64,000 nucleotides of DNA from Phycicoccus sonneratiae (GTDB lineage Bacteria > Actinomycetota > Actinomycetes > Actinomycetales > Dermatophilaceae): assembly GCF_016887965.1 (NCBI RefSeq), contig NZ_JAFDVD010000009.1, forward strand, positions 124,001-188,000. Direction: 5' to 3'. The position numbers and the translations under genes are program-made. Each line of letters starts with the position of its first letter. The stretch's first letter is position 1. This document shows, one piece after another, positions 44,150 to 51,801 of this stretch. Below the pieces are notes generated by a model that was not told the DNA's origin, made no database searches, and was given only the letters and a program-made list of their open reading frames with translations.

Positions 44150-45042
44150 TGACCGCCAGCACCTCCGACGCGCCGCTCGTCCACGCCGTCAACGTCTCGA
44201 AGTCCTTCCACGGCAACGAGGTCCTCAAGGGCATCGACATGGACGTCGCCACCGGCGAGGTCGTCGTCCTCCTCGGCCCGTCGGGCTCCGGGAAGACGAC
44301 CTTCCTGCGCTGCATCAACCAGCTCGAGACGATCGACGGCGGCCGGATCTGGGTCGACGGCGACCTCATGGGCTACGACGACCGCGGCGGCACGCTCCAC
44401 CGGCTCACCGACAAGCGCATCGCCGCCCAGCGCCGCGACATCGGGATGTGCTTCCAGCGCTTCAACCTCTTCCCGCACAAGACGGTCCTCGAGAACGTCG
44501 TCGAGGCGCCGGTGCAGGTCAAGGGGATGAAGCGCAAGGCGGCCGAGGCCCGCGCCATGGAGCTGCTCCAGCAGGTGGGGCTCGGTGACAAGCCGTCGGC
44601 CTACCCCGCCCAGCTCTCCGGCGGCCAGCAGCAGCGCGTCGCCATCGCCCGGGCCCTCGCGATGGACCCCAAGCTCATGCTCTTCGACGAGCCGACCTCG
44701 GCCCTCGACCCCGAGCTCGTCGGCGAGGTCCTCAAGGTCATGCGCGACCTCGCGACGCGGGGCATGACGATGATCGTCGTCACCCACGAGATGGGCTTCG
44801 CCCGCGAGGTCGCCGACCGGGTCGTCTTCATGGACGCCGGCGTCGTCGTCGAGGAGGGGCCGCCGAGCGAGGTCATCGGCAACCCGAAGCACCACCGCAC
44901 GCGCGCCTTCCTCTCCCGGATGCGCCAGGAGGAGCAGGCCCACGCCGAGGCGGTCGTCGCGTCGGTGACGGGGAACACCGAGGCCCTCGCGGACGCCCCG
45001 GGCGACGGCGGGGACGACGGCGCGCGCGACACCGCCGGGTGA
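44149..45042 (+). CDS. Polar amino-acid ABC importer ATP-binding protein
   Basis: A 297-residue ATPase with Walker [14 protein letters not shown] near residue 43, Q loop FQRFNLFPH, signature [15 protein letters not shown], Walker [14 protein letters not shown] and H loop [13 protein letters not shown]-terminal acidic and Ala-rich tail of about 35 residues extends past the usual end. The stop overlaps the start of the sodX gene by GTGA, joining this importer to the nickel superoxide dismutase genes. Confidence 0.95.
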
Positions 45043-45365
45043 GGGTGCCGCTGCCGGCGCTGGTCCGCGTGCGCGGCCGGTCGATGCTGCCGACCTACCG
45101 GGACGGCGACGTCCTCCTCGTGGTGCGCGGTGTGCGTCCCCGGCCCGGCCGGGCCCACGTCGTCCGGCTCCCTCCGGACGCCGCCGGCCGGCCGCGACCG
45201 CTGTCGGTCAAGCGCGTCACGGGCCGCGACCCGGACGACCCCGAGCGCTGGTGGGTCGACTCCGACAACGCCGCCGAGGGGGCCACCTCCTTCGACGTCG
45301 GCTCGCTCGCGGACGAGGACATCGTCGCGGTGGTCGCGCGGTTGGTGAGGAGAGCGCTGGGGTAG
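45039..45365 (+). CDS. sodX: Nickel superoxide dismutase maturation peptidase (S26 family)
   Basis: A 108-residue S26 signal-peptidase-like protease. The catalytic Ser15 lies in RGRSMLPTY and Lys58 in SVKRVTG, and the short form without membrane helices is typical of SodX. It removes the leader of the SodN precursor so that the new N-terminal His can bind nickel. It lies 44 nt before sodN. The GTG start overlaps the ABC ATPase stop by 4 nt, so it is transcribed with the importer, and a separate promoter was not seen. Confidence 0.9.
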
Positions 45366-45409
45366 GTTGAGGAGACCCGCAGAACCCCGCACCCCCCGAG
45401 GAGTGGCAC

Positions 45410-45805
45410 ATGCTGTCCCTGTTCCGCATCACCGACGTCGCGGCCCACTGCGACCTCCCGTGCGGCGTCTACGACCCCGCCCAGGCCCGTATCGAGGCCG
45501 AGTCGGTCAAGGCGATCATCGCCAAGGTCGCGGACAACGACGACCCCGACTTCCGCGTCCGCGCGACGATCATCAAGGAGCAGCGCTCCGAGCTCGTCAA
45601 GCACCACCTCTGGGTGCTGTGGACCGACTACTTCAAGCCCCCGCACTTCGAGAAGTTCCCGCAGCTGCACCAGCTCGTCAACGAGGCGACCAAGTTGGCC
45701 GGGGCCTCCGGCACCAAGGGCGAGTTCGACGCCGCGAAGGCCGACGAGCTCCTCGCGAAGATCGACGAGATCGACGCGATCTTCAAGGAGACCAAGAAGG
45801 GCTGA
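45410..45805 (+). CDS. sodN: Nickel superoxide dismutase precursor
   Basis: SodN turns superoxide into oxygen and hydrogen peroxide with a nickel centre. The 131-residue precursor has a 12-residue leader (MLSLFRITDVAA) followed by the nickel hook HCDLPCGVYD. After cleavage His1, Cys2 and Cys6 bind the metal. The rest is the usual four-helix bundle. ATG 45410 follows CGAGGAG. Its protease gene sodX lies directly upstream and a strong terminator follows 16 nt after the stop. In Streptomyces sodN responds to nickel through Nur. No Nur site was identified here. Confidence 0.97.
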   Translation: MLSLFRITDVAAHCDLPCGVYDPAQARIEAESVKAIIAKVADNDDPDFRVRATIIKEQRSELVKHHLWVLWTDYFKPPHFEKFPQLHQLVNEATKLAGASGTKGEFDAAKADELLAKIDEIDAIFKETKKG

Positions 45806-48807: not shown

Positions 48808-50139
48808 CTATCCGGCGACGACGCTCCGGCCGTCGACCCGGCCGACCGACGCGTCCTCGACGACGCGGGTCAGCGCGTCCACGACGTCGGGGTCGTACTC
48901 GTAGCCCAGCCCGAGGTGGATGCGCTCCATGGCCGCGTCGACGAGCACGGGGTCGTCGGTGCCCCGGGACAGGTCGTCGAAGGCGTTGGCGCACTTGATG
49001 ATGCGACTCTCGAGCGGCACCGGCTCGCCCAGCTCGCGGACGAGGCGGTACGCGGTCGTCTGCGTCTCGACGAAGCGGGCGACGTCGTCGAGGGTCTCGG
49101 CCTGCCGGATGATGCGGGCGCCCTCCTCGGCGATGTCGCGCTGGTCCGCCGGGGCGGCGAGCACGGTGGCGCCATCGGGGATGGGGTCGAGGAGCGAGAT
49201 CTGGCCGAGGTCGTGCAGGAGCGCCGCGTACTCGAGGCTGCGTAGCTGGCGGTCGCCGAGCCCGAGGACGCGTCCGATGCGGAGGCACAGCGCGGCGACC
49301 CGCTCGGCATGGTGCTCCGGGGTGTAGCCGCCGTGCTCGGTGAGGTGCGAGAGCGTCCCGATGAGCTGGCGGTTGGTCTCCCGGTTGCTCGCGTACTGCC
49401 GCACCGCGGAGTAGGCCATGGCCAACGGCACGAGCGCCACGGGGAGGGCCAGCAGGCCGAGGACGGGGGCCATGAGGGCGACCATCGGGCCGGTGACGAC
49501 GACCGCGAGCGTGAGCGGCGCGGCTTCACCGACCTCGTCGCGGACGGCGGCGACCCACGGCGTGCGTTGCCGCTCGGCCCGGATGCCGGCGACGAGGACG
49601 AGCTCGGTGAGCAGCCCGACGGCCGCCACGACGACCATCCCGAGCGCCACGAGGGCCAGTGAGGTGGTGGAGCTCAGCTGGGCTGCCCACAGGGTGCCGT
49701 CGGAGGGACCCACCCCACGGGCGAGACCCGCGGCGACCCACACCCCCACTGCCCGGGCCGCGAGCGCCGGCGTCCCGACGACGTCACCACGGGCACGCCG
49801 GACGGCGGCGGCGATCGCCAGGCCGGCGCTGACGACGATGACGACGAGCCCCGACTCGAGCGCGAACGTCGGTTCGCCGGCGATGCGCCCGAGGAGGACG
49901 ACGGCGAGGGCCGCCGCCGAGGAGAGGGGCGCGGTCTCCCGGCCGCTCGGCATGCGGATCCGCAGGAGCTCGCCACCGGCGACGAGCGCGACGGCGAGGA
50001 GGAGGGTGTGGCCGTGGGTCGCGAGCAGCGTCGGGAGGAGGTTGCCCGCGGCGATCAGGCCGGTGCACACCGCGACGAGGCCGAGGAGGACCACGGTGCG
50101 GCTCACGAGGCGATCGGGGACCCTGACGAGGGGAGTCAT
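48808..50139 (-). CDS. Polytopic membrane HD-domain protein (second of a tandem pair)
   Basis: A 443-residue protein. About seven or eight hydrophobic segments fill residues 15-250. The C-terminal cytoplasmic half is an HD phosphohydrolase domain with HHAERVAALCLRIGRVLGLG, the HD pair in ALLHDLGQISLLDP near residue 310 and IKCANAFDDLSRG. It is laid out like an HD-GYP domain but lacks the GYP segment, so cyclic-di-GMP cleavage is doubtful. ATG 50139 overlaps the stop of its paralogue by ATGA. Both follow a tiny secreted-peptide gene. A membrane sensor with nucleotide or phosphate hydrolase output is the best guess. Confidence 0.85.
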   Translation of the reverse strand: MTPLVRVPDRLVSRTVVLLGLVAVCTGLIAAGNLLPTLLATHGHTLLLAVALVAGGELLRIRMPSGRETAPLSSAAALAVVLLGRIAGEPTFALESGLVVIVVSAGLAIAAAVRRARGDVVGTPALAARAVGVWVAAGLARGVGPSDGTLWAAQLSSTTSLALVALGMVVVAAVGLLTELVLVAGIRAERQRTPWVAAVRDEVGEAAPLTLAVVVTGPMVALMAPVLGLLALPVALVPLAMAYSAVRQYASNRETNRQLIGTLSHLTEHGGYTPEHHAERVAALCLRIGRVLGLGDRQLRSLEYAALLHDLGQISLLDPIPDGATVLAAPADQRDIAEEGARIIRQAETLDDVARFVETQTTAYRLVRELGEPVPLESRIIKCANAFDDLSRGTDDPVLVDAAMERIHLGLGYEYDPDVVDALTRVVEDASVGRVDGRSVVAG

Positions 50140-51398
50140 GTCGAGAGCTCCTCGGCTCGGGTCAGAGCCACGTCGAGTGCGCGCACGAGCTCCTCGGTCC
50201 TCGGTCCAGGGTGTTCGGTGGCGATGAGGTCCCGGGCCTGACTGGGGGCGTACACGGTGCCCCCCGGCGTGCCGACCTGCGTGAGCAGGTCGTAGAGGTC
50301 GGCAAGCGCCACGATCCGTGATGGGAGGGATGCCGCGGCGTCGTCCGCCAGTGCTCTGCGATGCGTCTCGATCGAGTCGAGGGCTCCACGCAGGAAGGTG
50401 AGGTCGCCGAGGATGGCCACACCGGCCCTCGGGTAGCCGACCGTGGTGCTCGCGGGGTCCGTGAGGTCCAGGCCCCGCGCCTCCCGGGTCGGGAGGGTCG
50501 TCTGACCGACGTCGTGGAGCATCCCCGCGATGCGCGTGTCGGCGACCTGCTGTGGGGTGAGGCCGAGGTGCTCGGCCATCCGCCCGCTCAGATCAGCAAC
50601 CCGGGCGCTGTGGCCGGTGAGGTGTGGCGCCTTGGCCTCGACGGCGGCCACGAGCACACCGAGGACCCGCTGCTGGCCCTGCAGCTCGTCGGCGTGCTGA
50701 CGATAGGCCCAGTGGGCGACCAGCAGGGGCGCGAGGACCATCGCGGTGGCGACGACGACACCGAGCTGCGCCGGCACCCAGAGCACGACGAGGATGAAGG
50801 CGATGACGCCGTAACCGGCGGCGGCCGCACCCGTGCTGCGCAGGAGCAGGCCGATGTGCAGGCGGACGGGGACACCACGCGCGACCCGCATCATGCCCGA
50901 GAGGAGCACGGCGTTCGCGAGGACCTGGACGAGGTCCGCGACCACCATCGGGAGGGCGAGGTGGACGACGACGGGGGTCACCCCGGCCAGCTCTGCTGGA
51001 TCGAGGGTGCCGCCGGCGGCCAGGAAAGCCAGCCCTCCCACGCACCCGAAGATCGAGAACTGGGCCGAGTTGAACAGCCTGCCCTGCCACGAACTTCCCT
51101 GGAAGGGACCGATGAGGGCCCCCGCCAGGGCGACGACCGCAGGGCCGACGACAGCCTGCGCGGCGAGCATGACGATGCTCGAGATCGCGAGGTGCACGCG
51201 GTCGCCTACCACCACTCCGGGGTAGGCGACCGCGAGCACCGCGAGTGCCAGGACGGCGATGAGGTCCGGGCCAACCGAGATCGGGTGCACCCGACTCGAG
51301 AAGCCGGCGAGCAGGACGGCCCCCACGGCGAGGACGACGAGGTAGATGGTCGTCGCCGCGTGGGGTCCCACCCCCTCCCGGCGGCCCTTCACCGTCAC
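50136..51398 (-). CDS. Polytopic membrane HD-domain protein (first of a tandem pair)
   Basis: A 420-residue paralogue-like partner of the next gene. About seven membrane helices lie in residues 15-235, then a cytoplasmic HD domain with HLTGHSARVADLSGRMAEHLGL, the HD pair in GMLHDVGQTTLP near residue 295 and SRIVALADLYDLLTQVG. As in its partner, the HHE-DG-GYP part of HD-GYP proteins is degenerate. The GTG at 51398 comes 12 nt after the stop of the 45-residue peptide gene and has no real ribosome site, so its translation may depend on that gene. It was not recognised as a characterised protein. Confidence 0.85.
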   Translation of the reverse strand: MTVKGRREGVGPHAATTIYLVVLAVGAVLLAGFSSRVHPISVGPDLIAVLALAVLAVAYPGVVVGDRVHLAISSIVMLAAQAVVGPAVVALAGALIGPFQGSSWQGRLFNSAQFSIFGCVGGLAFLAAGGTLDPAELAGVTPVVVHLALPMVVADLVQVLANAVLLSGMMRVARGVPVRLHIGLLLRSTGAAAAGYGVIAFILVVLWVPAQLGVVVATAMVLAPLLVAHWAYRQHADELQGQQRVLGVLVAAVEAKAPHLTGHSARVADLSGRMAEHLGLTPQQVADTRIAGMLHDVGQTTLPTREARGLDLTDPASTTVGYPRAGVAILGDLTFLRGALDSIETHRRALADDAAASLPSRIVALADLYDLLTQVGTPGGTVYAPSQARDLIATEHPGPRTEELVRALDVALTRAEELST

Positions 51399-51410
51399 AG
51401 GCAGGAGAGG

Positions 51411-51548
51411 TCAGCCGCCATAGCTCCAGCCGAGCTGGGCGGTGCTGGTCGACTTGAAGTCCTGCGGTGCCGCGTTGGCGGACGTGGCCCCCACCGTGAC
51501 GAGAGCGGCGAGGAGAGCAGCGGCGGCGAGAGTACGGATGGTGCGCAT
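51411..51548 (-). CDS. Small exported peptide gene upstream of the membrane HD pair
   Basis: A 45-residue open frame. It has a basic N-terminus (MRTIRT), a hydrophobic core of about 16 residues (LAAAALLAALVTVGAT), the signal-peptidase site SANA and a predicted mature part APQDFKSTSTAQLGWSYGG of only 19 residues. ATG 51548 follows a strong GGAAGGAAA at 8 nt spacing. Its stop is 12 nt before the first HD-domain gene, so it heads the operon. I do not recognise the peptide. Size, export signal, aromatic C-terminus and context would fit a signalling peptide or a ligand for the membrane HD proteins. That is inference. Confidence 0.75.
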   Translation of the reverse strand: MRTIRTLAAAALLAALVTVGATSANAAPQDFKSTSTAQLGWSYGG

Positions 51549-51711
51549 GATGTGTTTCCTTCCAGAGGGTGAGAAGACCCGGGCCATGGCTCTCCGGGGC
51601 GGCCAGGGTCAGCCGAATTCTTTCACGAGGAAGGGTGTGCGACAATCACAGCGGCACCAGTGCGCCTCCGTGTCGTCGATTCCGGGGGCCGTTCCCGACG
51701 AGAGGTCACCC

Positions 51712-51786
51712 ATGAGCAAGCGCGCCCGCAAGCGTCGCTCGCGCAAGGGCAACAAGGCCAACCACGGCCGCAAGCCCAACGCCTGA
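51712..51786 (+). CDS. 50S ribosomal protein bL37
   Basis: A 24-residue, extremely basic peptide (MSKRARKRRSRKGNKANHG, then RKPNA). It matches bL37, a tiny protein found in the large subunit of actinobacterial ribosomes near the 23S rRNA core. The ATG at 51712 follows GAGAGG at 7 nt. A strong terminator hairpin begins 15 nt past the stop. It is too short for most gene finders. Nearly every third residue is Arg or Lys, as in the family. Confidence 0.92.
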   Translation: MSKRARKRRSRKGNKANHGRKPNA

Positions 51787-51801
51787 GCACCGAACGACGA
51801 C

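Follow-up and report, generated by a model that had tools for sequence, protein, structure and literature searches.

What is a 45-codon frame with a predicted signal peptide doing at the head of an operon for two membrane proteins? The question arises from a 64,000-nucleotide (nt) stretch of the Phycicoccus sonneratiae genome (contig NZ_JAFDVD010000009.1, positions 124,001 to 188,000; hereafter the window). An earlier note on this DNA, made from its letters, had described the frame as a tiny exported peptide, placed 12 nt before two membrane HD genes, and had likened the group to a peptide signalling circuit with hydrolase output. Our computations establish that the arrangement recurs across the phylum Actinomycetota and that the small frame is coding. 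From sequence comparisons, we hold it about evenly balanced whether the micropeptide is the cognate, same-operon ligand of a membrane sensor made up of two proteins of HdgA and HdgB type. All three frames and their spacing were confirmed on the minus strand, with the following features:

51411 to 51548, minus strand: micropeptide gene, 45 amino acids, ATG start, frame MRTIRTLAAAALLAALVTVGATSANA followed by APQDFKSTSTAQLGWSYGG; based on its ribosome site GGAAGGA, its relatives and its substitution pattern
51471 to 51548, minus strand: predicted signal peptide of Sec type (residues 1-26), cut after ANA; read from the sequence
51414 to 51470, minus strand: predicted mature peptide APQDFKSTSTAQLGWSYGG, 19 amino acids; read from the sequence and from tail comparison
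51414 to 51431, minus strand: aromatic tail GWSYGG of the predicted mature peptide; from tail comparison
51399 to 51410, minus strand: spacer with no Shine-Dalgarno sequence; read from the sequence, same length in Phycicoccus sp. HDW14
50136 to 51398, minus strand: HdgA-like protein (HD1), 420 amino acids, GTG start; membrane domain at about residues 1-238, then a C-terminal HD domain in which HD is kept and HHE and GYP are lost
50220 to 50657, minus strand: HD_5 domain of the HdgA-like protein, residues 248-393 (Pfam); its fold neighbours are HD-GYP domains
48808 to 50139, minus strand: HdgB-like protein (HD2), 443 amino acids; has a membrane domain, and its HD domain is degenerate (HDLGQ)
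48883 to 49314, minus strand: HD_5 domain of the HdgB-like protein, residues 276-419 (Pfam)

Transcription runs from the micropeptide through HD1 and HD2 to a gene that we take to be manA. The names manA, sigR, rsrA, bL37 and sodN are labels that we assume for neighbouring genes; HD_5 alone is a search result. The motif GGAAGGA lies 8 nt ahead of the micropeptide ATG, 12 nt separate its stop from the GTG of HD1, and HD1 and HD2 overlap by 4 nt. HD1 had been said to have almost no ribosome site, and indeed no Shine-Dalgarno sequence precedes its GTG; HD1 translation is likely coupled to that of the micropeptide. The nearest named relative, Phycicoccus sp. HDW14 (L032), has the same spacing, provided that translation begins at its first ATG, and the same genus (g1) holds the match to Nostocoides sp. 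Soil756 (L033); in all, a scan of named genomes gave these two near loci and two distant ones. The micropeptide is predicted to be exported via Sec and cut at A-N-A, leaving 19 residues. Searches of Pfam and NCBIfam with the window peptide and eight relatives returned no match above cut-off.

HD1 and HD2 both exceed the Pfam cut-off for HD_5 and are the only two such matches in the window genome (4.1 Mb, 98.79% complete); none of the control genomes with HD_5 matches was a Streptomyces. A hydropathy scan gave 7 overlapping segments in HD1 and, in HD2, 11 overlapping pieces that merged to about 6. The AlphaFold model of HD1 is poor in its membrane part (mean predicted local distance difference test score 51.8; 6 sequences) and unfit for fold comparison there. 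The HD part of this low-confidence model resembles HD-GYP domains (9rbz, expectation value (E) 8e-4; 4mcw, E 6e-3); its likeness to the HD domain of PgpH is weaker (4s1c, E 0.04). The GYP part had been called degenerate, and it is missing from both proteins: the intact signature HHExxDGxGYP is absent from the window HdgA, GYP is lost from HdgA in all 12 genomes of the window genus (the window and 11 others) and present in other genera, and none of 18 HdgB sequences compared carries it.

HdgA and HdgB of Streptomyces venezuelae received their names in 2018 (PMC6205966). Two accounts describe a probable operon for two proteins with six predicted helices each, HdgB being without GYP (PMC6205966, PMC13232838); according to the first, both were found in the membrane fraction only, no developmental phenotype was seen, and the authors suspect that activating signals were absent (PMC6205966). 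The window pair fits this description of vnz24090/vnz24095, to which it is likened by description and not by direct alignment: in both, an adjacent pair each with an N-terminal membrane domain and a C-terminal HD domain has a second protein without GYP. The HD pair as such has already been described. A search of the open literature, with most subscription papers outside its scope, gave no description of the peptide or of a system of this kind. In two respects the loci differ, since the window genus has lost GYP from HdgA too and since Streptomyces-like loci (those of the large-genome genus g84, which we read as Streptomyces, with two from the phylum search) have no small frame ending in tryptophan-x-tryptophan (W-x-W; 0/14). 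These genomes match the HdgA profile at E 1e-63 to 6.5e-41. A second HD match follows hdgA at 12 of 12 such loci, and a frame that we read as RsrA-like stands directly upstream at 11 of the 12 (not L067), as one does in the window's family. Most of 12 printed sequences from the Streptomyces-like loci (L066-L077, L184, L186) also carry a stretch close to TCACCCGAAxGTGCTAATC upstream of hdgA.

HdgA was matched at E ≤ 0.001 in 169 of the 186 genomes of the family. In a sample of the class, 143 of 394 genomes had a match at 1e-20, and in one of the phylum 116 of 296 had a match at 1e-30, often over the HD part only. At all 20 larger loci (19 from the family, 1 from the order) hdgA and hdgB stand together with the genes that we presume to be sigR and rsrA.

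Does the small frame travel with the pair? Our strict test asked for a frame of at least 15 amino acids that carries W.W within the final 11 residues and stops no more than 260 nt before hdgA; reverse complements of the same 400 nt and dinucleotide shuffles served as controls. Such a frame precedes hdgA at 85 of 135 loci; reverse complements gave 2 of 135, and shuffles averaged 1.55 of 135. The test was also applied to 172 regions that precede long frames, drawn from the window and 20 loci; 2 passed, both of them upstream of hdgA, while other hdgA genes escaped it, their longest frame extending beyond the peptide. A looser test (W in the last 10 residues) was passed at 119 of 135 loci, by 43 of 135 reverse complements and by 46 of the 172 regions upstream of long frames. 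The survey excludes L002, L032-L036 and the duplicates L037, L041, L044 and L063. Its 91 family loci are a part of the 169 hdgA-bearing family genomes, taken by score and then hand-picked for genus spread; class and phylum loci were also partly hand-picked, and two Streptomyces-like loci from the phylum search were counted as Streptomyces-like.

With a slightly wider tail limit than in the strict test, W.W was found at 64 of the 91 family loci and a looser aromatic or W tail only at the other 27. For other families of the class the counts were 26 of 32 with W.W, 5 looser and 1 with none; for Streptomyces-like loci, 3 of 14 looser and 11 with none; and for other classes of the phylum, 3 of 22 with W.W, 10 looser, 7 with a GGA-type tail that has no tryptophan (Trp) and 2 with none. 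Inspected by eye, all of these 22 except L188, L191 and L197 (19 loci) show a peptide of the type MK-hydrophobic-GA-short tail. Small frames thus recur upstream of homologous HD pairs, as the earlier note had required of its proposal; the exact end QLGWSYGG, which it had expected to be conserved, is not kept, and what is shared is a short aromatic tail.

The same note had named a non-coding substitution pattern as a second way in which it could fail. In 16 pairs hand-chosen as close relatives, the proportion of synonymous sites that differ (pS) was 0.352 and that of nonsynonymous sites (pN) 0.107, a ratio of 0.30, as in coding sequence; the set includes a pair with no differences and another whose pS and pN are the same. 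For the window peptide and its nearest relative the values are 0.43 and 0.16.

The micropeptide takes different forms. Leaders are of Sec type with A-x-A in the window genus and others, short and amphipathic elsewhere (MKKIVSAVEQFLQSGANWKW; MKAITTIFESILG...), or hydrophobic (MFAALLSALA...; ...GGWSWW), with MKARITILLTTLAALLLSGGAHWRW outside the class. Upstream of the MKAITTIFES-type peptides of genus g44, L019 and L031 have a hairpin of about GGTCC-GAACGGATGAG-GGACC, possibly a derived leader element. Tails differ by genus: WSYGG, WGWGN, GWQW, WTWGS, VTWEE, GWNPTGR, NGWLPR and YHNWEPK. At 18 of 91 family loci a Trp-containing unit of at least 4 residues is repeated in tandem, with five copies in L099; none of 32 other class loci and none of 22 loci of other classes has such repeats. 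Units identical in protein differ in DNA at 10 of 17 loci examined (L140 has five synonymous base changes), as expected of a maintained multi-copy peptide; since units were found by their identical residues, replacement changes between them could not appear.

Among 30 family loci, a partial Mantel test that allows for the HD domain of HdgA and for HdgB (L016, with no hdgB, was dropped) related tail distance to the HdgA membrane domain with r 0.237 and a permutation p of 0.0015, a result to be read with the liberal tendency of this test and the hand alignment of the tails in mind. The corresponding value for the HdgB membrane domain was r -0.092 (p 0.79); uncorrected correlations were 0.203 for that domain and 0.293 for the HdgA HD domain. 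Tails are variable in the window genus and in g44. Within the former, membrane-domain identity averaged 48.7% for HdgA and 58.9% for HdgB, HdgA being lower in 54 of 55 pairs; in g44 the values were 52.9% and 58.8% (HdgA lower in 23 of 28 pairs). In f24, with its invariant G-W-[ST]-W-W tail, they were 65.9% and 59.5% (HdgA lower in 1 of 28).

These observations suggest a sequence of events. In the family, peptides with Sec-type leaders would be exported and trimmed; the HdgA membrane domain would read the aromatic tail by binding it and becoming activated; and HdgA, acting with the degenerate HdgB, would pass the signal to the cytoplasmic HD domains. Variable and tandem-repeated tails and their covariation with HdgA favour the signalling circuit of the earlier note. 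Its other elements are inferred: that the peptide is exported and cleaved, that it binds and activates HdgA, what the output is, and whether it acts between cells or within one.

Several results weigh against the micropeptide as ligand, beyond the cautions attached above to the Mantel test and to the repeat units. Streptomyces-like genomes keep hdgAB with no W-x-W frame, and they too have an HdgA membrane domain less conserved than that of HdgB (62.1% and 66.8% identity; HdgA lower in 53 of 66 pairs), so this difference is not diagnostic on its own. The looser-only class, which holds 27 of the 91 family loci, has the high chance rate given by its controls. The window's own tail, W-S-Y, does not pass the strict test and falls into this class, its frame being backed by the nearest relative. 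Many class-level peptides, such as those of the 20-residue MKKIVSAVEQFLQSGANWKW type, have no evident signal peptide, and the export route and side of action are uncertain for that reason. In other lineages the frame lies inside a structured RNA, which could mean regulation in cis. Finally, the loss of GYP from HdgA and the absence of GGDEF matches make any proposed output tentative.

What, then, could the HD pair do? In many relatives HdgA is an intact HD-GYP protein, and there the output would be nucleotide hydrolysis. In the window, the earlier claim of hydrolase output is doubtful: GYP is gone throughout the genus, and searches of the window genome for GGDEF and EAL domains gave 0 matches each. 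For these reasons cyclic di-GMP (c-di-GMP) is unlikely as its output, and the pair of the window genus may instead use another nucleotide or act as a non-catalytic relay. GGDEF matches do occur in 10 of 12 genomes of this genus despite the loss of GYP. Across the family, 130 of 169 hdgA-bearing genomes, incomplete assemblies included, have no GGDEF match, and c-di-GMP is an unlikely substrate in much of it. A domain of the cyclic di-AMP (c-di-AMP) synthase type (DAC) was present in 10 of 10 genomes tested, and c-di-AMP is one candidate substrate. The HdgA of G019 keeps HHE..GYP with an HD motif outside our search pattern, and that of G142 does not match HHE..GYP.

Two groups of genomes stand out in these searches. 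G149 (L018), G140 (L022), G141 (L024), G146 (L026), G115 (L160) and G089 (L161) encode HdgA with intact HD and HHE..GYP and have no GGDEF match. Genus g4 (G005-G009) has 13 to at least 18 GGDEF matches per genome and, unlike most of the family, no hdgA match.

Could the frame instead act in cis, as a leader peptide that sets hdgA expression through Trp-codon sensing, ribosome arrest or translational coupling and has no later function? It stands directly before hdgA, which in the window has no ribosome site of its own, and an RNA of other lineages is in keeping with such a role. At 16 class-level loci, two arms on either side of the frame, separated by about 180-310 nt, pair into a helix of 19 base pairs; a hairpin lies between them, and AGCGGAGCGGAT and TAGCGG are conserved (layout AGCGGAGCGGAT...GCACGGGC...TAGCGG...GCCCGTGACAT). 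These 16 rows, L045:933-1206 and L083:5271-5519 among them, were chosen for having the element; L056, whose helix is weaker, was excluded. Counting both helices, pairing holds in 96.9% of cells, and two-sided changes are seen at 13 of 26 pairs; of 500 shuffles, 0 reached these two values or the covariation score and 7 reached the number of pair types. Outside the class, the helix exceeded the 95% point of 100 base shuffles at 17 of 22 non-Streptomyces loci and all 100 at 12 of the 22. A 23-nt pattern of the element had this locus as its sole perfect match in 3 of 4 genomes, one of which has two further matches with 2 mismatches elsewhere; in the fourth genome the locus matched with 2 mismatches, among four others. 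An Rfam scan of 12 loci, 7 of them with the element, left the element unmatched and gave one chance-level match elsewhere. The peptide stop lies about 8-20 nt from the 3' arm of the helix in several loci, and a few family tails (TWWWHP, RRTWWWTPAAR) resemble trp leader peptides.

The family loci point the other way. At 8 of 8 of them, the window's among them (L001, L003, L004, L018, L019, L020, L022 and L031), the outer helix did not rise above the 95% point of shuffles, and the same held at 4 of 4 Streptomyces-like loci and 7 of 8 f24 loci. The peptide persists in the family where the helix is undetected, a point in favour of a peptide product; the RNA may regulate translation of the peptide in other lineages. 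In the window only 12 nt separate the frame from hdgA, and a terminator search between them found none. Repetition of whole tail units, a variable distance from Trp to stop and signal peptides that look cleavable suit a product better than a leader. As for ribosome arrest, SecM-type peptides were sought, in one study, at 80-200 amino acids with at least 40 hydrophilic residues (PMC7897499), and the window peptide has 45. The WWW-tailed frames were suspected of being genuine trp leaders, yet those of L162 and L163 sit in the sigR-rsrA-hdgAB context. In view of the short gap, missing terminator and undetected family helix, Trp attenuation or ribosome arrest was placed second to the ligand, and a leader peptide with no later function is in our judgement unlikely.

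A small membrane subunit, one that stays on HdgA/HdgB and stabilises or tunes the complex within a single cell, would account for the position of the gene beside the HD pair and for the covariation of tail and HdgA membrane domain. Several lineages have a hydrophobic N-terminal helix with no obvious cleavage site (the GWSWW and MFAALLSALA types). The A-x-A sites of the window genus and several others would, however, free the tail, tandem units suggest that several copies are released, and Streptomyces-like pairs persist without a W-x-W frame; we give the subunit a low probability, though it and the leader peptide are both live rivals of the ligand. That the peptide is a secreted antimicrobial or the precursor of a modified peptide, with the HD pair for immunity or regulation, is very improbable: small size, Trp-rich tails, repeats and diversity between species are in keeping with it, but the tight gene string continues with two HD genes and the manA-like gene, with no modification enzyme, protease or exporter seen there (the wider genome was not searched), Pfam and NCBIfam gave the peptide no match above cut-off, and the same partner pair stands at every locus studied, the loci having been found through hdgA. 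A chance or non-coding frame can practically be dismissed, for although the looser test is often passed by chance and the window's tail is not W-x-W, the strict counts (85/135 against 2/135), the substitution ratios of the 16 pairs and of the window pair, and the synonymous differences between units all contradict it.

We therefore return to the micropeptide as a ligand and to how far that reading may extend. A broader proposal, to which we assign somewhat less than an even chance, is that peptide signalling of this kind spans the Actinomycetota: a hypervariable, sometimes multi-copy aromatic tail would be the ligand of HdgA/HdgB, its gene would be wrapped, across much of the phylum, in a structured RNA not described before, and the system would often have outlived c-di-GMP synthesis in the family, implying an output that is non-catalytic or uses another nucleotide (e.g., c-di-AMP). 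Genomes in which no c-di-GMP synthase was detected also retain the putative receptor pair. The upstream micropeptide of many relatives is a concrete candidate for the activating signal thought to be missing for HdgA/HdgB of S. venezuelae. What would be new is the ligand, for which the open literature searched gave no described counterpart.

Other features surround the operon. By eye, one precedes the peptide:

51617 to 51645, minus strand: possible promoter TTGTCG-17-AAGAAT, similar in L003 and under the scanner threshold

A promoter scanner run on the region upstream of the peptide found none. Divergent from the peptide, a very basic 24-codon frame (51713-51787, plus strand) is presumably bL37-like; such a frame lies between rsrA and hdgA, or beside them, at 9 of the 20 larger loci. 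Farther away (45039-45805, plus strand), a small peptidase-like frame is followed by one that we take to encode a nickel superoxide dismutase (sodN), with a transporter-like gene pair upstream.

How does the locus compare with known systems? SecM-type arrest peptides and trp leader peptides share with it a small frame upstream of a regulated gene and a C-terminal motif. With a predicted mature part of 19 residues, the window peptide is far shorter than the SecM-type peptides sought in the study cited (PMC7897499). A trp-type attenuator differs in that here the gap is 12 nt with no terminator, HD proteins lie downstream, and some relatives repeat the tail unit. Yeast alpha-factor is made from a multi-copy precursor, and identical short units likewise stand in tandem within one precursor here; unlike it, the repeats are confined to a minority of family loci, and a processing protease was not identified. 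ComX-ComP, AgrD-AgrC and SHP-Rgg are peptide pheromone circuits encoded in operons, and the likeness is closest in architecture: a small peptide gene beside a putative receptor gene, with a variable short signal and conserved hardware. The neighbours of the window peptide include no AgrB- or ComQ-type processing gene and no histidine kinase, in which they differ from Agr and ComX. The putative receptor would be neither a histidine kinase nor a cytoplasmic regulator but a membrane protein of HD-GYP type and, if the micropeptide is indeed its ligand, would add a peptide-gated receptor of that type to bacterial signalling.

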